Below, one piece after another: positions 49,635 through 58,897 of a DNA stretch of 64,000 nucleotides (position 1 is the first letter of the stretch; each line of letters opens with the position of its first letter). The notes under the pieces were generated by a model. It saw only the letters and a list, made by a program, of their open reading frames with translations. It was not told the origin of the DNA and ran no database searches. This stretch comes from Labilithrix sp. Its GTDB lineage: Bacteria; Myxococcota_A; Polyangia; Polyangiales; Polyangiaceae. Location of the stretch: NCBI GenBank assembly GCA_019637155.1, contig JAHBWE010000033.1, positions 1 through 64,000 on the forward strand. Reading direction: 5' to 3'. Both the position numbers and the translations under genes were made by a program.

Positions 49635-51833
49635 ATGACTAGGTGGCGGAGGCACGGCGTTCTGGCCGTGGTCGTGTCCTTCATCATCGCGCTGTTCGCC
49701 TGCGGGGACGGCCGACCCCCGGCCGCCGACGACTGGGGCGATCTCGCCAAACCCCCCGATCCCACGCCCCTACAACCGTGCGTGGAAGGCGCGGTTCAAC
49801 CGTGCAAGGTGTCGATCGACGCGAAAAACTGCTTCTCGGGCGAACAGGTGTGTCGCGGCGGTTCGTGGGGTGAGTGCGGGCGTAGCCAGTTCGGAACGGG
49901 GTTCAAGACGAAAGCGGCGGCGCTCGGCACCCAGGGAGCGTGCACGCACAACTCCTGCAACCCGAACTGCCAGGCGTTCGAGGACGAAGTCCCGCCGTCA
50001 CCTCTTCAAGCGGCAGGCTCGGCGCCGACGCCGGGCGGCCCGGTGGAAGGGTTGCCGCAGAGCTACATCGACGCGGGGCTCCGGGCGTCCTGCACGAACG
50101 ACAACCAGTGCCAGTTCGACCACCACTGCTCGTCCGGGACGTGTGTGCCGTGGGGGACGGGCGAGTTCGTCAACACCGCTCCCAACGCCGACCTCACCGT
50201 GCAGCCCATCTGCGACCCCGACGCCATCACCGTCTGCAACCGCGGCGGCGTCGCGGCCCCGCCGGGCGTGTCGGTGATCGTCGTCTCGGGGGCCTCCGAG
50301 AGCACGATGGGGAGCTGCTCGCCGCTAACCTTGCCGGACGGCGGCCCGGGCGGAACGGTCCACAGCACCTGCACGACGGGTCAGGCGATCCCGCCGGGGG
50401 GGTGCCGCCAGGTCACCGGCTGCAACGTGACGGGCGGCACCTACCTCGTCTACGCCAACCCGTCCGGTATGCCCGGCTCCGTCACGGAGACGTCATGCGG
50501 GAACAACTACTCGGTCGCCTACAACGACGCGGAGTGCAAGTGCTTGGCGACCAGCGTGACCCAGGCCCTCCGCCCTGTGACGATGTTCATGATGCTCGAC
50601 AACTCGGGATCGATGAACACCACACCGGCGCCCAGCCTCTGGACCTCGACCAAGAACGCGCTCGAGTCGTTCTTCGACAGCACGCAGTCGAACCCGATCA
50701 ACTTCACCATGCGCCAGTACGGCACCCATGGTGGGTCCAACTGCAACGATTCGTCTTGCAGCACCGCCAACTGCTCCAATTTCGCTACCACGCCATCCCC
50801 GCTCGTGGGCGCGCACATCGCTACGATGAAGGGCATGCTCCCCAACTCCGCGCCGGGCGGCGCGGGCACGCCCCACCGAGCGGCGGTGGCGGGTCTCGCG
50901 AAGGCGGCGAGCGACTGGCAAACGGCCCATCCGGATCACAAGACGGTCGCTGTCTACATCAGCGACGGCGCAGCCACCACGTACGCCAACTGTGGAGGCA
51001 CGAACACGGACATCAATGGACCGGTAGGGACCGCGTACACGACGCTCGGCGTCGAGACCTACACCATCGCGATGCCTGGAGCGAGCGTCAGTCTGCTCAA
51101 CAGCATCGCCACGGCCGGCGGCACGACGTCCTTCAACCTCACAACCGTCCCCGCGGCCAATCTCAACACGGCGGTAACGAACGCGCTGTCGAGCATCGCG
51201 GACGCCGTCCTGACCTGCGACGTGCCCATCCCGAATCCGGCCGCCGTCGATCCCGACGACGTCGGGGCCGTCTACCTTCCCAACGGCAATCCCCCGGGGA
51301 GCACGATCAACAAGGTCGGCAACGCCGCAGCTTGCACGTCAGGCAACCAGTTCTACCTCGACAATCCGACCACTCCGTCGAACCTGACGATCTGCCCGTC
51401 GACGTGCAGCACCATCCAGGGCGATCCGAACGCCATCATCGAGATCACCGGCGGCTGCGCCGGAGGGTACACGCCGCAGACGTTCACCTATGAGTACGAG
51501 GGCGATTGCAGCGCGTACACCGGCGCAGCGGTCGAATGGATGTTCTTCTCCTACGACTCGACGATCCCCGACGACGCGAACATCGTCTTCCGCGCGCGCA
51601 CCGCCGACACGATCGCCGATCTCAGCGCCGAGGCCTACGCGAGCCTCACGACGGCCACCAACGCCACGGAGGTGGTGCCGCCCTCGGCGCCGTTCGACCT
51701 GAACGCGGCGCTCCCCAACCCGCAGAGGAATGCGCTCCAGCTCGAGATCACCATCAACCCGACGTCCAACGGCGCCGCGACGCCCAGCCTGACCAGTTGG
51801 GACATCCAGTTCTCCTGCACGCCGAACGAATAG
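49635..51833 (+). CDS. VWA-domain surface lipoprotein
   Basis: A 732-aa protein from ATG 49635. The signal peptide ends at a lipobox (FIIALFACGDG). A Cys-rich N-terminal part follows (CVEGAVQPCKVSIDAKNCFS), then a von Willebrand A domain from ~residue 315: MFMMLDNSGSM is the MIDAS DxSxS, with GGAGTPHRAAVAGLAKAASD and TVAVYISDGAATTYANCGGT downstream. The C-terminal ~190 residues are beta-rich with paired cysteines. VWA domains bind protein ligands through a metal ion. GC bias is lower than in its neighbours. It may act in adhesion; that is inference. Confidence 0.9.
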   Translation: MTRWRRHGVLAVVVSFIIALFACGDGRPPAADDWGDLAKPPDPTPLQPCVEGAVQPCKVSIDAKNCFSGEQVCRGGSWGECGRSQFGTGFKTKAAALGTQGACTHNSCNPNCQAFEDEVPPSPLQAAGSAPTPGGPVEGLPQSYIDAGLRASCTNDNQCQFDHHCSSGTCVPWGTGEFVNTAPNADLTVQPICDPDAITVCNRGGVAAPPGVSVIVVSGASESTMGSCSPLTLPDGGPGGTVHSTCTTGQAIPPGGCRQVTGCNVTGGTYLVYANPSGMPGSVTETSCGNNYSVAYNDAECKCLATSVTQALRPVTMFMMLDNSGSMNTTPAPSLWTSTKNALESFFDSTQSNPINFTMRQYGTHGGSNCNDSSCSTANCSNFATTPSPLVGAHIATMKGMLPNSAPGGAGTPHRAAVAGLAKAASDWQTAHPDHKTVAVYISDGAATTYANCGGTNTDINGPVGTAYTTLGVETYTIAMPGASVSLLNSIATAGGTTSFNLTTVPAANLNTAVTNALSSIADAVLTCDVPIPNPAAVDPDDVGAVYLPNGNPPGSTINKVGNAAACTSGNQFYLDNPTTPSNLTICPSTCSTIQGDPNAIIEITGGCAGGYTPQTFTYEYEGDCSAYTGAAVEWMFFSYDSTIPDDANIVFRARTADTIADLSAEAYASLTTATNATEVVPPSAPFDLNAALPNPQRNALQLEITINPTSNGAATPSLTSWDIQFSCTPNE

Positions 51834-51848
51834 GTCGAAGCTGAAGTA
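51833..51848. repeat. 16-bp direct repeat, copy 2
   Basis: Exact copy of 48337-48352, lying at the stop codon of the VWA gene. See copy 1 for the caveat on chance. Confidence 0.4.
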
Positions 51849-51926
51849 ATCCGTGCCGATAGCGGCGCGCCGGCAGAAATCGAACCGGCCCGTTAACGAT
51901 TCCTCGCGGGGCGGCTACGAAGGGGC

Positions 51927-53327
51927 GTGGCTTATCTCTTATCGGCACTGCGGGCGCTCTTCGTGGCGTTCGTGTTGCTCCTCGCGGCGCCGGCTTGGGC
52001 GCAGGGGGACGCGATCTTGTTGCTCGTCCACGGAGACGAGCTCCCGAAGGAACGGCTCCGCGACGCCATCGCCGCCGAGCTGAAGAAGCCCGTCGCGATC
52101 GACGCAGGCGCTGGCGGTGCCGGCGGCGTCGTGACCGTCACCTACCGCGCGGCCACGCGCGAGCTGGCGGTGACCTGGGACGGACCGAAGCGAGGGACCG
52201 TGAGCCGTGTCGTGAGCGCAGCGGACAAGGTCGACGACGTCGTGCGCGACGCGGCGTTGCTCGCGGGGAACCTCGCGCGCGACGAGGCCGACGAGCTGCT
52301 CGGACCCAAGCCACCGCCGCCCGTCGAGCCCGCCGAGCCCGCGGCGCTGCCGCCGCTGCCGCCTCCGATCGAGCCCTCGACGCCGTCGTCGCCGGGCGCG
52401 GATCGGCCCACGCCGCCGGCGCGCGATCCGAACGATCGCGACTTCAACCTCGGCGTCATCTATCCGCTCGCCACGAACTTCGGGCGGCCGCAGGTGAAGA
52501 CGAAGTTCGACTGGAACCTGTTCTCGAGCCGCATCGGTGAGCTCGACGGCTTCCAGCTCGGCGGCGCGAACGTCGTCGGGCGCGACGCCTCCGGCGTTCA
52601 GATCGGATGGATCGCGAACGTGGTCGGCGGCACGGCCGCGGGCTGGCAGGTCGCGCCGTTCGTGAACCGCGCCGGCGCGCTCGAGGGGATCCAGACCGCC
52701 GCGCTCGTGAACACGGCGGGACGCGCGAGCGGCGGACAGGTCGCGCTCGTCAACCTGTCGGGCGATCTCGACGGCGCGCAGGTCGGTCTCGTCAACGTCG
52801 GCGGTCACGTGCGCGGCGCCACCGTGGGTCTCGTCAACGTCGCCGACAGCATCGACGGCGTCCCGGTCGGCCTCGCGAGCATCACGAAGGACGGCGGGAT
52901 CCACCCGCGAGCCTGGTCGTCGAACGCGTCCTTCGCGAACCTCGGCTTGAAGCTCGCGACGCGGCACACGTACACGATGCCGTCACTTCACTACCACCGT
53001 GCCTACCAGCACGATTTCTACGGCGCCGGATTCACGATCGGCGGACATATCCCATTTCGCGCGGTGGACAATGGCCCTTATCTCGACACGGAGCTGGCGT
53101 TTTCCTGGCTCTACGCGCCGGAGCGGTCCATCCCGTCGAGCAGCCAGAACACGTACCACCAGCACCTGCTCCAGCCGCGCCTCCGCGCGATGTTGGGGTG
53201 GCGGTTCGTCGAGCACTTCAGCGTCTTTGCCGGCGCGGGGCTCCTGACGCAGGTGCGTTTCCTCGACGACGGAGACCGCGCGCTCATCCGCATCGGTCCC
53301 GAGTTTGTGGCCGGGGTCGAGCTGTGA
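51927..53327 (+). CDS. Exported protein with LA_2272-type surface repeats
   Basis: A 466-aa protein from GTG 51927 (GGGG upstream). The signal peptide is LFVAFVLLLAAPAWA with cleavage before QGDA. A ~100-residue N-terminal domain and a Pro-rich linker precede about six ~20-residue repeats such as GVQIGWIANVVGG, GGQVALVNLSG, GAQVGLVNVGGHVRG and GATVGLVNVADS, the pattern of LA_2272-type surface repeats. The C-terminal part has beta strands ending in GPEFVAGVEL, as in outer-membrane barrels. Its stop overlaps the sigma-factor start by one base. Confidence 0.85.
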   Translation: MAYLLSALRALFVAFVLLLAAPAWAQGDAILLLVHGDELPKERLRDAIAAELKKPVAIDAGAGGAGGVVTVTYRAATRELAVTWDGPKRGTVSRVVSAADKVDDVVRDAALLAGNLARDEADELLGPKPPPPVEPAEPAALPPLPPPIEPSTPSSPGADRPTPPARDPNDRDFNLGVIYPLATNFGRPQVKTKFDWNLFSSRIGELDGFQLGGANVVGRDASGVQIGWIANVVGGTAAGWQVAPFVNRAGALEGIQTAALVNTAGRASGGQVALVNLSGDLDGAQVGLVNVGGHVRGATVGLVNVADSIDGVPVGLASITKDGGIHPRAWSSNASFANLGLKLATRHTYTMPSLHYHRAYQHDFYGAGFTIGGHIPFRAVDNGPYLDTELAFSWLYAPERSIPSSSQNTYHQHLLQPRLRAMLGWRFVEHFSVFAGAGLLTQVRFLDDGDRALIRIGPEFVAGVEL

Positions 53328-53926
53328 TGCTCTGGCCCACCGTCGTGGCGCGCGAATCCGTTCTGGCGGAGGCACTCGAAGATCGGATCGCGCGGGGCCA
53401 CCCCGACGCGATCGTGGAGGCCTATCGCGCGCACCACGCCCACGTCCGCGCGTTCGCGGAGCGCCTCGTCGGCGATCGCATGGCGGCGGAGGACCTTGTC
53501 CACGAGGTCTTCGTCGCGCTCCCCGACTCCATGCGTCGCTTCGAAGGCCAGTGCTCGCTCCGGACGTGGCTCATCGCGATCGCGGCGCGGCGGGCGCAGA
53601 ACCACGTGCGTACGGCGCAGCGCCGTCGTCGCGCGGAGAGCGGCCTCGCGTTCGAGCCGCGCCCCGATCCCACGCGCCCGGACGAAGCGGCGGAGCGCGC
53701 GGAGCTCGCGACGCTCCTGACCCGCGCGCTCGACGCGCTGCCGCTCGATCAGCGCGTCGCGTTCGTGCTGTGCGAGGTGGAGGAGCGCACGAGCGTGGAG
53801 GCGGCGCAGATGCTCGACACGAGCGACGGCACGGTCCGCGCACGCGTCCACCTCGCGAAGAAGAAGCTCCGCGCGGAGCTCGAGCGCCTGGCCCCGACCA
53901 CGCCGCGCGCGAAGGAGGCCCCATGA
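53327..53926 (+). CDS. ECF sigma factor coupled to a surface-repeat protein
   Basis: A 199-aa protein from ATG 53327 (TGATG overlap with the preceding gene). Region 2: AYRAHHAHVRAFAERLVGDR, AAEDLVHEVFVALPDSMRRF, TWLIAIAARRAQNHVRTAQR. Region 4: LDALPLDQRVAFVLCEVEER and EAAQMLDTSDGTVRARVHLA. It is followed by a doubtful 58-aa ORF and the membrane/TPR partner at 54096. The order exported protein, sigma, membrane partner suggests one signalling unit. Confidence 0.9.
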   Translation: MLWPTVVARESVLAEALEDRIARGHPDAIVEAYRAHHAHVRAFAERLVGDRMAAEDLVHEVFVALPDSMRRFEGQCSLRTWLIAIAARRAQNHVRTAQRRRRAESGLAFEPRPDPTRPDEAAERAELATLLTRALDALPLDQRVAFVLCEVEERTSVEAAQMLDTSDGTVRARVHLAKKKLRAELERLAPTTPRAKEAP

Positions 53927-54099
53927 ATCGCCACTCGGCGAGCACGACACGTCCGTGTCGTCGCACACATTTTTCTTTGGGCCCGCACGACGTCTTCTCC
54001 CGTTTCGGCCTCGTCGCGTGGGGCGCTGGTGGGCCTTCTCACCTACGACGCCTTCATCCCTGTCCCCCGCAGCGCCAAGCCAATGCGGAGGCCTCATGA
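53923..54099 (+). CDS. Possible 58-aa linker ORF between the sigma factor and its partner
   Basis: An ORF (MNRHSASTTRPCRRTHFSLG...) that overlaps the sigma stop (ATGA at 53923) and the next start (ATGA at 54096). Both overlaps suggest coupling, but the sequence is of low information and contains the hairpin at 53944. It may be chance or a translated leader. Confidence 0.3.
   Translation: MNRHSASTTRPCRRTHFSLGPHDVFSRFGLVAWGAGGPSHLRRLHPCPPQRQANAEAS
53944..53979 (+). terminator. Hairpin with T-tract after the sigma gene (possible attenuator)
   Basis: ACGACAC-GTCC-GTGTCGT (53944-53961) forms a 7-bp stem, followed after eight bases by the T-rich TTTTTCTTT. This is the only intrinsic-terminator-like element clearly seen in the window. 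Its place between sigma factor and partner would limit expression of the partner; the gap before the T-run weakens the call. Confidence 0.4.
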
Positions 54100-55844
54100 C
54101 CCACGACCTGCTCACCATCGCCACCCGCGCCCTCCGCGACCAGACCGCGCCGCGCCCGAGCGACCGCGCGCTCCCCGAACCGACATCGCCGCGCGCGAGC
54201 GACCGCGCACTCGCCGAGCCGCTCTCGCCGCGCACGAGCGACCATGCGGAGGCTGCTGCGTCGCGCGCGAGTGACCGCGCGCTCCTCGAGTCGACGTCGC
54301 CGCTCGCGAGCGATGGTGCGGTCGAGGCTGCTGCATCGAGCGCGAGTGAGCGTGCGCTCCTCGAGTCGACGTCGCCGCGCGCGAGCGATGGTGCGGTCGA
54401 GGCTGCTGCATCGAGCGCGAGTGAGCGTGCACTCCTCGAGCCGACGTCGCTGCGCGCGAGCGATGGTGCGGTCGAGGCTGCTGCATCGAGCGCGAGTGAG
54501 CGTGCACTCCTCGAGCCGACGTCGCCGCGCGCGAGCGATGGTGCGGTCGAGGCTGCTGCATCGAGCGCGAGTGAGCGTGCACTCCTCGAGCCGACGTCGC
54601 CGCGCGCGAGCGATCGTGCGACCGTCGAGTCGACGTCGCCTCGTGCGGGCGATCGTGCGCTCCTCGAGCCGACGTCGCCGCGCGCGAGCGATCGTGCGGC
54701 CGAGGCTGCTGCGTCGCGCGCGCGTGAGCGTGCGCTCTTCGAGTCGACGTCGCCTCGTGCGAGCGATCGGGCGGAGGATGCTGCGTCTCGCGCGCGTGAG
54801 CGTGCGTCGGAGGCTGCTGCGTTGCGTGCGCGTGAGCGTGCGTCGGAGGATGCTGCGTTGCGTGCGCGTGAGCGTGCGGTCGAGGGTGCGGGGGCGCGCG
54901 CGAGTGAGGGCGCGTTGAGGGATGCGGCGTCGCGCGTGGGGGCGGTGGGGGATGCGGCGCCGGTGAGTGTGCGGGAGCTCGTTGCGGCGGAGACGCTGGC
55001 GCGGATCGAGCGGTCGCTTCGCGGCGGTGGACGGACCGGGGCGCGTGCGCGCGTGCGGTGGATTGCGTGGCCGCTCGCGGCGGCGTTTCTCGTCCTCACC
55101 GCGTGGGCGAGCGCGTCGGGGCAGCTTGCGCGGCTCGTCGCTTTCGCGACGCACGCGGACGTCGAGCACACGCGCGAAGCGAAGTCCCCCGCACCGTCGA
55201 CAACCGCTCCGGCAGGATGGGGGCTGCCGCCACGCGCTCCGTCCGCGACAAGCACCGAGAGCGCCGCCGAAACCGACGCGCCTTCACCCTCCGAGCTCGC
55301 GCCCTCCGAGCCCGTGCCTTCCGCACCCGTGCCTTCCGAGCTCGGCTCCGCCGTGCTCGCTCCCGCCGCGCCTGCCGCCTCCGCCGCGCTCGGGTCCACC
55401 ACCCCCACCGCGCTCGCGCTCGCGCCTGCCGCGCCCGCGCTTGGATCCGCGCCTGCTGCGCCTGCGCGCGGACCCGCGGCCCCGCTCGGACCCGCGCCCG
55501 CCGCGCCCGCGCTCGGACCCGCGGCTGCGTCGTCGAGTCGTGGCTTGGGCGGGGCTCTAGGGCCGGCGGGGGCGTCCGATGTTGACGTGCTGTACCGCGA
55601 GGCCCATGACGCGCACTTCGAGCGGCGCGATCCGCAGGCGGCGCTCGTCGCGTGGGACAGGTACCTCGCGGCGGCGGGGACGAATGGTAAGTTCGTGCTC
55701 GAGGCTCGTTACAATCGGGCGCTTTCGCTCGTTCGGCTTGGTCGGAAGACGGAAGCGGTTCATGCGCTAAAGCCTTTTGCGAATGGCGATTACGGCGGAT
55801 ACCGCCGCGAAGAAGCCATTCGGCTCTTGCAGACTCTCGAATAG
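54096..55844 (+). CDS. ECF-associated membrane protein with minisatellite-expanded cytosolic region and C-terminal TPR
   Basis: A 582-aa protein from ATG 54096 (SD GGAGG). After MTHDLLTIATRALRDQT come ~270 residues of alternating 11-13-residue units, type A RALLEPTSPRASD and type B GAVEAAASSASE. Four adjacent A/B pairs are near-identical at the DNA level (75-bp period). ETLARIERSLRGGGR then leads to one membrane helix (WIAWPLAAAFLVLTAWASAS), a Pro/Ala repeat linker (PAAPALGS-type) and a TPR-like domain (LYREAHDAHFERRDPQAALV ... ARYNRALSLVRLGRKTEAVH). Without the repeats it looks like an ordinary anti-sigma/TPR partner. The repeats are the anomaly. Confidence 0.8.
   Translation: MTHDLLTIATRALRDQTAPRPSDRALPEPTSPRASDRALAEPLSPRTSDHAEAAASRASDRALLESTSPLASDGAVEAAASSASERALLESTSPRASDGAVEAAASSASERALLEPTSLRASDGAVEAAASSASERALLEPTSPRASDGAVEAAASSASERALLEPTSPRASDRATVESTSPRAGDRALLEPTSPRASDRAAEAAASRARERALFESTSPRASDRAEDAASRARERASEAAALRARERASEDAALRARERAVEGAGARASEGALRDAASRVGAVGDAAPVSVRELVAAETLARIERSLRGGGRTGARARVRWIAWPLAAAFLVLTAWASASGQLARLVAFATHADVEHTREAKSPAPSTTAPAGWGLPPRAPSATSTESAAETDAPSPSELAPSEPVPSAPVPSELGSAVLAPAAPAASAALGSTTPTALALAPAAPALGSAPAAPARGPAAPLGPAPAAPALGPAAASSSRGLGGALGPAGASDVDVLYREAHDAHFERRDPQAALVAWDRYLAAAGTNGKFVLEARYNRALSLVRLGRKTEAVHALKPFANGDYGGYRREEAIRLLQTLE
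54316..54615 (+). repeat. Tandem 75-bp repeat, four near-identical copies
   Basis: Copies begin at 54316, 54391, 54466 and 54541 (each opening GTGCGGTCGAGGCTGCTGCA) and differ at only a few bases. Degenerate units continue on both sides, roughly 54150-54900. The period is a multiple of three, so the coding frame is kept when copies are gained or lost. Antisense and +2 frames are also open here, which is a by-product of the repeat. Confidence 0.9.
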
Positions 55845-55939
55845 CGGCTGCGGCCGCGGTCGCGGCGGCGTCGAAGCTCTTGGCGGGCGTGCGGTTGGTC
55901 GCACGAACGGCGGCTCTCGTCCTTTTCCTGGAGGTCATC

Positions 55940-57178
55940 ATGGTGCGTCGGTTGGTCGGTGTCTCGTTCCTCTTGCTCGCGGCGTGTGAGATCGAGGTGG
56001 TCGATGGGGTGGGAAGCCACGGATCGTCGCGCGCGCGGCCCGAGGTGCCGCGGCTGCCCGCCGAGCCGGCGGAGCCGGGAGAAGGAGGCGAGACCGAGTA
56101 CACCCGCGTCCCCGGCGCTGGCGACGCGTGCTCGCTCCCGATCGTCCGCGACAAGGAGCTCGTCATCACGCAGCAGAGCGTCCTCCTCGATCGCCGGCCC
56201 GCGTGGAGCTTCCGCGCGCGCATGACGGAGCTCGCCGGGAGCGAGGCGGCCGCGGCCTCGTTCACCTACGCCTGGGTCGATCAATGGCGCACCGTGACCG
56301 AGGTCGGGCCCGCGCGCGCGCCGGTGACACCTCGGCCCGACGCCGCGAAGGTGCTCGGCGATCCGTTCGCGCTGCGGCTGCTCGCGATCGTGAATCGGCC
56401 CGATCTCCGCGCGGAGGACGACGGCTGCGCCGGCGCCGGCGGAGAGCTCCGCTTCGTGTACGGCGCGTCGTTCGCGTTCACCATCATCGTCGAGATCCCC
56501 TGGCCTGCGACGCGGACGCCGCGCGCGTGGACCGAGGCGTGGCACGCGCTCGGCGAGCAGAAATTCGGCGACGGCTACAACGCCGCGCTCGAGGCGCTCA
56601 CCGACGCGATCGTGGGCGCGTCGCCGCCGGCGACGTGGAAGGTGCGCACGAACGAGCGCGCGTTCGGGGCGACGTGGGAGATGCGCGACTTCGCGCTCGC
56701 CGGCGGGGCGCTCGTGCAGGTGCCGATCGCGACGACGCCGCGCATCGAGCTGAACGGGAGCGCATCGCTCGATGCGTGGGCGAAGGACAATCGCGCGAGC
56801 ATCGCCGACCGCTCGTTCGCGTTGCCCTCCGCGTTCCAGGCCGGCGCGGCGCCGGTCCCGAACGCGAGCTTCCGCTGGACGTCGCGGACGCTCTCGGAGA
56901 CGGAGCGGGCGCGGCTCAGCGGCGAGACGTGCAACGGCTGCCACGGCGGCGAGCACTCCGGCGGGTCGCTCTCGTTCCAGCACATCGCGCCCGCCAACGC
57001 ACCTTCGTACTACGACGGCAACACGAGCGGCGAGACGCAGCTCTCGCGCTGGCTCCGCGACGAGGAGCTCCCGCGCCGAGAGCGCTCCGTCCGCGCCGCG
57101 CTGTGCGCGCCCGCCTGCACGACCGCCCCACCCCCGGGAGGGAACGACGGGAGCGACGACGGCTACCGCGAGCCGTAG
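55940..57178 (+). CDS. Lipoprotein with a CxxCH (haem c-like) motif
   Basis: A 412-aa protein; ATG 55940 is preferred (SD GGAGGTC) over an upstream start that adds a non-signal segment. The signal peptide ends at LLLAACEIE. The mature protein has beta-rich sequence (LVITQQSVLLDRRPAWSFRA; LLAIVNRPDLRAEDDGC) and, near residue 335, the motif CNGCHGGEHSGG followed by SLSFQHIAPA. CxxCH could bind covalent haem c, with Met or His elsewhere as second ligand, though a single motif in a Cys-containing lipoprotein may be structural. Function unknown. Confidence 0.8.
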   Translation: MVRRLVGVSFLLLAACEIEVVDGVGSHGSSRARPEVPRLPAEPAEPGEGGETEYTRVPGAGDACSLPIVRDKELVITQQSVLLDRRPAWSFRARMTELAGSEAAAASFTYAWVDQWRTVTEVGPARAPVTPRPDAAKVLGDPFALRLLAIVNRPDLRAEDDGCAGAGGELRFVYGASFAFTIIVEIPWPATRTPRAWTEAWHALGEQKFGDGYNAALEALTDAIVGASPPATWKVRTNERAFGATWEMRDFALAGGALVQVPIATTPRIELNGSASLDAWAKDNRASIADRSFALPSAFQAGAAPVPNASFRWTSRTLSETERARLSGETCNGCHGGEHSGGSLSFQHIAPANAPSYYDGNTSGETQLSRWLRDEELPRRERSVRAALCAPACTTAPPPGGNDGSDDGYREP

Positions 57179-57205
57179 CGCTTCATCTTCTCGAGCAGCG
57201 TCAGG

Positions 57206-57832
57206 TCAGTCGCTCCAGACCTGGGCCGCCCAGGCGCCCTTGCCGCTGCCGACGCCGACCGTGAGGGTGACCTCGTCCGCGGCGGTGAAGCACGCGGCGC
57301 CGCCCTGAGGCGCGGAGGGGCCCGGCGCCTCGGCGACGACGTCGCCCGCGGAGTCGCGCAGGACGACGACGACGTCCTTCACTGATTCGTCGGTTGCAAA
57401 GTACACGCGATAGCAGTGGTTCGCCTCGGCGCGGAACTTCTGGTCCTGGTGCGCGTCCTTGTCCGCCTGCGTCCCGCGGAGGAGCGCGCCGACCGGCTTC
57501 ATCTTCGAGCTCGCCGCGCAGCCCTCTCCGATCTTCTTCACGAGCGCGGCCGGATCCTTCGCCTGCGCGGAGGTCTGGCCGCCGCACGCGAGGAGCGCGC
57601 CGTCCGCCTTCACCTTCGCCTTCTTCGATCCCGCGACGCCGGGCGGCGGCATCGACGCCATCGCGGGGAGACCGCTCGGCGGCGGCGTCGTCGCGAACGA
57701 CGCCGGCGCGCCCCCGTCGGCGGACGCGCTCGACGCCGGCACCGCGATCGGCTTCGGCGCGGTCCCGCCCTTGCACGCCGCGAGCGCGGTGAGCCCTGCC
57801 ACAACGAAGAGTCCAACGACCTCGACCTTCAC
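57206..57832 (-). CDS. Predicted lipoprotein of unknown function
   Basis: A 208-aa protein from GTG 57832. The signal peptide (VGLFVVAGLTALAAC) ends at a lipobox. An Ala/Ser/Pro linker precedes a Cys-containing domain (DGALLACGGQTSAQAKDPAA, KKIGEGCAASSKMKPVGALL, ANHCYRVYFATDESVKDVVV, GAACFTAADEVTLTVGVGSG) that looks like a compact beta fold with disulfides. It is divergent from the TsaC-type gene across 30 bp. No known family is recognised. Confidence 0.8.
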   Translation of the reverse strand: MKVEVVGLFVVAGLTALAACKGGTAPKPIAVPASSASADGGAPASFATTPPPSGLPAMASMPPPGVAGSKKAKVKADGALLACGGQTSAQAKDPAALVKKIGEGCAASSKMKPVGALLRGTQADKDAHQDQKFRAEANHCYRVYFATDESVKDVVVVLRDSAGDVVAEAPGPSAPQGGAACFTAADEVTLTVGVGSGKGAWAAQVWSD

Positions 57833-57862
57833 GCGGACAACGTAGCCGAGATTTGAGCTACC

Positions 57863-58897
57863 GTGCGCGACGTGCCTCGCGTCTCGAAGGTCGACCCCGT
57901 GACCCCCGATCCCGTCGCCGTCGCCGAAGCGGCCGACGTGCTGCGGACCGGCGGGCTCGTCGCGTTTCCGACCGAGACCGTGTACGGCCTCGGCGCGCGC
58001 GGGCTCGATCCCGCGAGCGTCGCGCGGATCTTCGAGGCGAAGGGGCGCCCCGGCGGACACCCGCTCATCCTCCACGTCGACGGCGAGGAGATGGCGCGCG
58101 GGCTCGCGGCGGAATGGAGCCCTCGCGCGGCCGCGCTCGCGGCGGCGTTCTGGCCGGGGCCGCTCACGCTCGTCGTGCCGCGCGCGGCGCACGTGCCGCC
58201 GGAGGTGAGCGGCGGCCTCGCCACCGTCGGCCTCCGCGCGCCCGTGCACCCCGTCGCGCTCGCGCTCATCGCCGCCGCCGGCGAGCCGATCGCCGCGCCG
58301 AGCGCGAACGCGCACACGCACGTGTCGCCGACGACGGCCGAGCACGTCGTGCGATCGCTCGGCGATCGCGTCGACCTCGTCCTCGACGCCGGGCCGTGCC
58401 GGCACGGGATCGAGTCGACCGTCGTCGCGGTCGGCGCGCATGACGAGCCCCTCCGCGTGCTCCGCCCCGGCGCCGTGACGCTCGAAGCGCTCCGCGCGAT
58501 CGATCCCCACACCGTCGACGCGACGAGCACGATCGCGGAAGGCCCGCGCCCCGCGCCCGGCATGGCGGCGAAGCACTACGCGCCGCGCACGCGCGTCGTC
58601 CTCGCGCCGCGCGGTCAGGTCGGGTGGACGGTCGCGGAGGCGACGGTCCCCGCCGCGACGAACAGCTTCCGCGTCGCCGCGATCGTCGCGACCACCTCAG
58701 GAGAGAGTGACGCCGCGGGCTGCGAGCCGCTGATCGTGCTGCCGGACGAGCCCGCGGGGTACGCGCGCGGACTGTATTCCGCGCTCCACGAGGCCGACGA
58801 GGCCGGCGTCGATCTCCTCGTGATCGAGGCGCCGCCCGACGGCGACGTCGCGTGGTGGGCGATCGCCGACCGGCTGCGCCGCGCGGCGAAGGCCTGA
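57863..58897 (+). CDS. L-threonylcarbamoyladenylate synthase (Sua5/YwlC type)
   Basis: A 344-aa protein; GTG 57863 is used, a later GTG is possible. The YrdC/TsaC domain spans residues ~18-205: LRTGGLVAFPTETVYGLGAR, IFEAKGRPGGHPLILHV, FWPGPLTLVVPR, VGLRAPVHPVAL and PIAAPSANAHTHVSPTTAEH. The C-terminal Sua5 domain has GPRPAPGMAAKHYAPRTRVV and later YARGLYSALHEADEAGVDLL. It makes threonylcarbamoyl-AMP from threonine, bicarbonate and ATP for t6A37 modification of ANN-decoding tRNAs. Confidence 0.95.
   Translation: MRDVPRVSKVDPVTPDPVAVAEAADVLRTGGLVAFPTETVYGLGARGLDPASVARIFEAKGRPGGHPLILHVDGEEMARGLAAEWSPRAAALAAAFWPGPLTLVVPRAAHVPPEVSGGLATVGLRAPVHPVALALIAAAGEPIAAPSANAHTHVSPTTAEHVVRSLGDRVDLVLDAGPCRHGIESTVVAVGAHDEPLRVLRPGAVTLEALRAIDPHTVDATSTIAEGPRPAPGMAAKHYAPRTRVVLAPRGQVGWTVAEATVPAATNSFRVAAIVATTSGESDAAGCEPLIVLPDEPAGYARGLYSALHEADEAGVDLLVIEAPPDGDVAWWAIADRLRRAAKA

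Follow-up and report, generated by a model that had tools for sequence, protein, structure and literature searches.

An in-frame minisatellite between the two cytosolic helices of a putative anti-σ factor in Labilithrix sp.

The locus lies in a 10.1-Mb draft genome of Labilithrix sp., assembled in 46 contigs; the window analyzed is the stretch of 64,000 nucleotides at positions 1 to 64,000 of contig JAHBWE010000033.1. The genes and features described here are all on its forward strand. An LA_2272-type surface-repeat protein is encoded at 51927-53327 (NCBIfam NF047436, 30.2 bits against a cut-off of 25), and the stop of its gene overlaps the next start in TGATG, as read from the window sequence. 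What follows (53327-53926) is the gene of a 199-residue ECF σ factor (Pfam Sigma70_r2, 7.4e-15, and Sigma70_r4_2, 2.8e-14; NCBIfam TIGR02937, 1.7e-30) that matches SigE, RpoE and SigW among solved structures, and CnrH weakly. This σ gene is the immediate upstream neighbor of the gene (54096-55844) for its membrane partner, a putative anti-σ factor of 582 residues recognized by homology at both ends. (A start picked automatically, with a gap of 28 and a product of 629 residues, is wrong; the curated start at 54096 agrees with the homologues.) Both strands contain long open frames, a common feature at such a G+C content, and antisense or other-frame coding was considered and rejected: the forward-strand gene is favored because of the homology at both ends and because dN/dS of the 39-bp repeat units described below is lowest in its frame. 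An Rfam search of positions 51000-58000, up to an E-value of 1, gave no structured RNA match.

An LA_2272-type ORF stands beside the σ/partner pair, before or behind it, in 31 of 40 homologous stretches (two of the matches are weak, and two of the entries, L104 and L150, are one locus). The locus belongs to a type of Polyangiales cassette made up of a surface-repeat protein, an ECF σ and a membrane protein that combines a short cytosolic domain of two helices, a single membrane helix, a linker rich in proline and a TPR-like domain in the periplasm. The surface-repeat protein may be the signal source or the target of the cassette.

In the homologues, the cytosolic part of the membrane partner consists of helix 1 (with conserved L6, A9 and A12), a short loop, and helix 2 (with T-R-x-R) leading towards the membrane helix; a model of one of them, L010, has helices at residues 4-16 and 22-72, the second continuing into the membrane helix. 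Comparison with the homologues and an AlphaFold model agree that all the native elements are retained in the present protein: helix 1 (MTHDLLTIATRALRDQT; 54096-54146, with L6, A9 and A12), helix 2 (54969-55025, containing AETLARIERSL), the membrane helix (55035-55118) and the TPR-like C-terminal domain (55572-55841). The model places the three helices at residues 4-17, 292-310 and 314-341, respectively. A P/A-rich periplasmic linker with weaker repeats of its own, seen with TRF and in the homologue survey, occupies 55119-55571. The C-terminal domain is assigned by homologue alignment and structure model; its conserved YL, EARYNRAL and GGYR positions are present here, the fold of L010 matches the TPR domains of YbgF and BamD with weak E-values, and Pfam TPR_2 reaches only 0.12 on this partner.

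Helix 1 and helix 2 are parted by an in-frame tandem array at 54165-54953, delimited with TRF and by unit alignment. Its 20 regular units of 39, 36 or 33 bp span 54165-54908 and are followed by a degenerate end (54909-54953); every unit length is a multiple of three, and the array holds no in-frame stop. Central to it are four 75-bp units (36+39; 54316-54615) that differ pairwise at 1-3 of 75 bases, while outer units diverge down to 25 matches in 39. A near-identical center with diverged edges is the usual pattern for recent central growth. The original prediction had given the gene, the four 75-bp units and the frame-preserving period just as they are found here, and had placed the array correctly in the cytosolic part of the ECF σ partner, with an otherwise normal N-terminal helix before it and the membrane helix behind; alignment with repeat-free homologues, which it called for, puts the insertion point between helix 1 and helix 2. 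Its alternating 39- and 36-bp units also stand, with 33-bp units to be added, but the repeats start a unit before the point it gave, because the native sequence at 54126-54164 is the founder unit (see below).

With tandem units longer than 10 bp, in frame and above chance, the array is a coding minisatellite. Its TRF score is 791; when the window is shuffled 30 times with dinucleotides preserved, the highest score per shuffle lies at 51-87. Within 864 kb sampled from its own genome (400 kb of each of two contigs, besides the window) it ranks second, and first among arrays with periods divisible by three. The one array with a higher score, a 74-bp repeat in 90 copies (G000:C3:273964-280633), is not spanned by an open frame; we take it to be probably a CRISPR. 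A search of 58 related genomes, its own included as the single assembly of this species, yielded no second copy of the array and, in one genome (G024), a single weak match with a stop inside; a search of plasmids and viral contigs found nothing.

The AlphaFold model, for which alignment depth over the array is nil, draws the first part of the array as disordered and residues 195-281 as a long helix. In-frame GTG codons lie right behind the array (54963-54971), preceded by a G-rich stretch. Judged from sequence, an internal start at these codons could yield a product that lacks the array and helix 1.

Among 183 genomes of the order, this one included, 78 have the C-terminal domain. (A scan of named genomes by means of the C-terminal profile found 38 loci, in myxobacteria, Deltaproteobacteria or Proteobacteria; the same scan with the part of the protein that follows the array gave no matches.) The survey of the family took in 71 homologues whose fetched stretch included a σ gene and whose partner frame was intact, and left aside 12 loci lacking a σ gene there, near-duplicate loci, and one locus with a broken frame (L027). 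The cytosolic part is 41-67 residues long in 70 of the 71 and 117 residues in one (mean 48, median 46). In that one, L033 of genome G057, the length seems to come from partial duplication of the two-helix module. The cytosolic part of the present protein, at 322 residues, exceeds the family-typical length of about 41-67 and makes it a variant member. A cytosolic tandem array with a TRF score of at least 100 occurs in none of the 71 homologues (there are two weak ones, with scores of 55 and 68). Periplasmic linkers range from 69 to 172 in length, and 12 of the 71 carry a tandem array with a score of at least 100. Cytosolic length is thus tightly kept and linker length is free, and this gene breaks the rule on the inside. 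Two observations concern L104 of genome G004: its linker contains repeats with a 39-bp period (positions 1908-2030), and its frame is broken between the membrane helix and the TPR domain, as a pseudogene or through an assembly error.

In a tree of the σ factors, the σ of the window groups with those of L010 and L011, from the same genus (100/100), and both of these loci are array-free, as is L039, the second cassette in the window's own genome. The branch to the window's σ measures 0.42, the others in its clade 0.34 and 1.05; its length is not unusual, and so the σ factor has apparently not been released from constraint.

The source of the array is still in place. The native unit at 54126-54164 (RALRDQTAPRPSD), which covers the end of helix 1 and the loop behind it, is identical to unit 2 of the array at 32 of 39 positions; elsewhere in the window, on both strands, the best match to unit 2 is 27 of 39. 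The residues of this founder are also found in array-free homologues (ATRALRDQSAP in L088), and this, together with the match itself, indicates that the array arose out of the protein's own sequence, at the end of helix 1 and in the loop. The array is derived, since the closest σ relatives, L010 and L011, lack it and keep an ATGA overlap of the two genes. It is best read, from the sequence at hand, as a locally born and recently amplified coding minisatellite. In the lineage leading to this species, a native 39-bp segment would have been duplicated in tandem; the copies would have diverged into 39-bp and 36-bp types, the latter presumably derived from the former, and the 75-bp pair of the two (36+39) would then, and recently, have been amplified. 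The origin of a minisatellite is rarely visible; here the founder remains in place and dozens of array-free relatives fix the insertion point.

The junction between the σ and partner genes is altered as well, by a dispersed element that had escaped the original prediction. In 69 of the 71 homologues the σ stop and the partner start overlap as ATGA (-4); the remaining two have overlaps of 8 and 11 bases (for one homologue, L035, an alternative partner start would give a gap of 5). Against this direct overlap in 71 of 71, the genes are separated here by 169 nt. Two junction copies, identical at 12 of 13 positions, flank the element that lies in this gap: the left copy (GGAGGCCCCATGA; 53914-53926) has a ribosome-site-like sequence and the ATGA overlap, and the right copy (GGAGGCCTCATGA; 54087-54099) contains the partner start. 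This flanking pair is equalled by 1 of 100 shuffles, though ribosome sites resemble each other in any case. The old start still opens an ORF of 58 codons (53923-54099, by translation), which runs from the ATGA of σ to the ATGA of the partner, so that a coupling relay may persist.

Within the gap, a genome search identified a copy of a dispersed element of about 100 nt (53966-54072, ends approximate). This genome has 15 copies of the element; those at the other 14 sites (L052-L065) are 78-91% identical to this one over the matched parts, and comparable copies are absent from the 34 other genomes searched. By a rough check of G+C by codon position the copies are apparently intergenic. The layout is a T-rich start followed by a hairpin, GGCCCGCAC...GTGGGGCGC; across copies, zero base pairs are changed on both sides, and the intergenic stretch folds barely better than its shuffles (z -1.45). 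A simple σ70 scan of the gap, which covers this single promoter type, found no promoter. Target-site duplication was rejected as a general property of the element: the other 14 copies have no flanking repeats beyond those of shuffles. Placed between the genes, the element would have exchanged the direct ATGA overlap for a relay through the 58-codon ORF, and such a relay may change the ratio of anti-σ to σ.

In the annotated frame, dN/dS of the 39-bp units is 0.50, lower than in any of the other five frames; that of the 36-bp units is 0.94, and here another frame has a lower value. Since unit pairs are not independent, these values lend weak support to a translated, mildly constrained array, and retention of frame over so few length changes is likewise weak evidence. 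The RAL of the founder is largely preserved: among the 39-bp units, the founder included, all 11 have the R and the A, and 10 have the L.

By its architecture, the membrane protein would be an anti-σ factor of the CnrY (class II) kind. In a compact clamp of that kind helix 1 would grip σ region 4 and helix 2 would grip σ region 2, and the array would add ~265 residues exactly between the two grips, as a tether predicted to be partly disordered and partly helical. With each grip weak by itself, the hold on σ would loosen, or a lower signal would suffice for its release. On this view the array would pull a CnrY-like clamp apart into two halves joined by a long tether and probably weaken it, a reading by analogy that we rank first and put at even chances. 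A worm-like-chain estimate with chosen parameters gives an effective concentration of ~144 mM for 8 intervening residues and 0.76 mM for 265; at the present length, a 25-residue unit changes it by ~12%. Loss of the whole array would therefore matter and loss of one unit little, which argues against fine tuning by single repeats, if not against larger jumps. Should the clamp model hold, the gene would be a natural experiment on the grip separation that an anti-σ factor tolerates before failing, and every array length would come with a simple prediction of its own. A limit on this reading is set by the linker arrays of the homologues (12 of 71), which show that such repeats arise readily and with no obvious purpose.

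Those same linker arrays are the starting point of a serious rival, ranked next after the tethered clamp: neutral slippage, in which the expansion has merely been tolerated in a flexible loop of a low-constraint gene and σ control is unaffected. The near-unity dN/dS of the 36-bp units is in keeping with it, as are the ATGA overlap broken by the inserted element and the homologue of G004 whose frame is broken within its repeated linker. What neutrality explains poorly is the tight cytosolic length of the family (41-67 residues in 70 of 71), the intactness here of both helices, the membrane helix and the TPR domain, and the dN/dS of 0.50 of the 39-bp units in frame; we hold it to be possible, short of probable. 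Because the central units are nearly identical (1-3 differences per 75 bp), and thus a substrate for slippage or recombination with a period that preserves the frame, length could also vary between cells; the original prediction went further and proposed that copy number might tune access to σ. For M. tuberculosis promoters, PMC12817950 reports repeat copy numbers that vary at rates of 1e-2 to 1e-3 per chromosome. Set against frequent variation of this kind as a tuning device are the ~12% by which, on the estimate, one unit would alter the clamp, and the fact that an in-frame change is no on/off switch; we consider it unlikely. In a combined form, repeat number would set the tether length and, with coupling reset by the element, make for a heritable and reversible adjustment of the σ set-point, a proposal to which we attach similarly little credence.

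The remaining alternatives carry less weight still. Near-identical 75-bp units in a 46-contig draft invite the thought that the repeat number, or the entire array, is an artefact of assembly, and repeat arrays are known to be misassembled (PMC6868369). The number of central units may indeed be wrong. For the array as such an artefact is very improbable: collapse or chimera does not create distinguishing substitutions and strongly diverged outer units, and the contig continues through conserved sequence on both sides. Another thought is that σ docks on the repeats themselves, which would then offer it additional, decoy or multivalent binding sites. In its favor, the closing residues of helix 1 (RAL) belong to the founder and recur with the 39-bp units, where they are largely kept. 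By eye, though, the units recreate only the A12 position of the L6, A9, A12 pattern, and we give docking scarcely any chance.

The tethered clamp draws on comparison with known anti-σ factors. CnrY of Cupriavidus metallidurans has a small cytosolic part and one membrane helix. The family of the present partner resembles it in layout, with a short cytosolic part of two helices (split by the array in this protein), a single membrane helix and an ECF σ partner; it differs in having a periplasmic TPR-like domain and, in this protein, in the ~265 repeat-coded residues that part the two helices. According to PMC7406223, CnrY wraps its σ with two helices, the first binding σ4 and the second σ2; the paper, which deals with class I anti-σ domains, treats domains of fewer than 50 residues as possible class II members. 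The N-terminal profile matched no anti-σ factor among solved structures, and CnrY is not among its 7 matches up to an E-value of 10. The likeness is for this reason one of size, helix count and position, and the relation of the family to class II is one of analogy, not membership. Anti-σ domain models of Pfam and NCBIfam, up to an E-value of 1, have zero matches on this partner. A search of open-licence papers for literature joining anti-σ factors with minisatellites or VNTRs found nothing relevant.

RseA-type (class I) anti-σ factors are similar in being membrane-bound partners of ECF σ factors that grip σ4 and σ2 with different helices, but a class I domain has four helices, against two in the shorter domain of this family. 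With bacterial coding minisatellites and in-frame VNTRs, such as those of the mycobacterial pe/ppe genes, the array shares its long in-frame units; unlike them, it lies in the cytosolic grip of a putative signaling protein. The Polyangiales homologues (L010, L011, L088 and others) have the same gene pair, the same domains and the same native helix-1 residues, and they differ from the present locus in a cytosolic part free of any array and in the directly overlapping ATGA that joins σ and partner.
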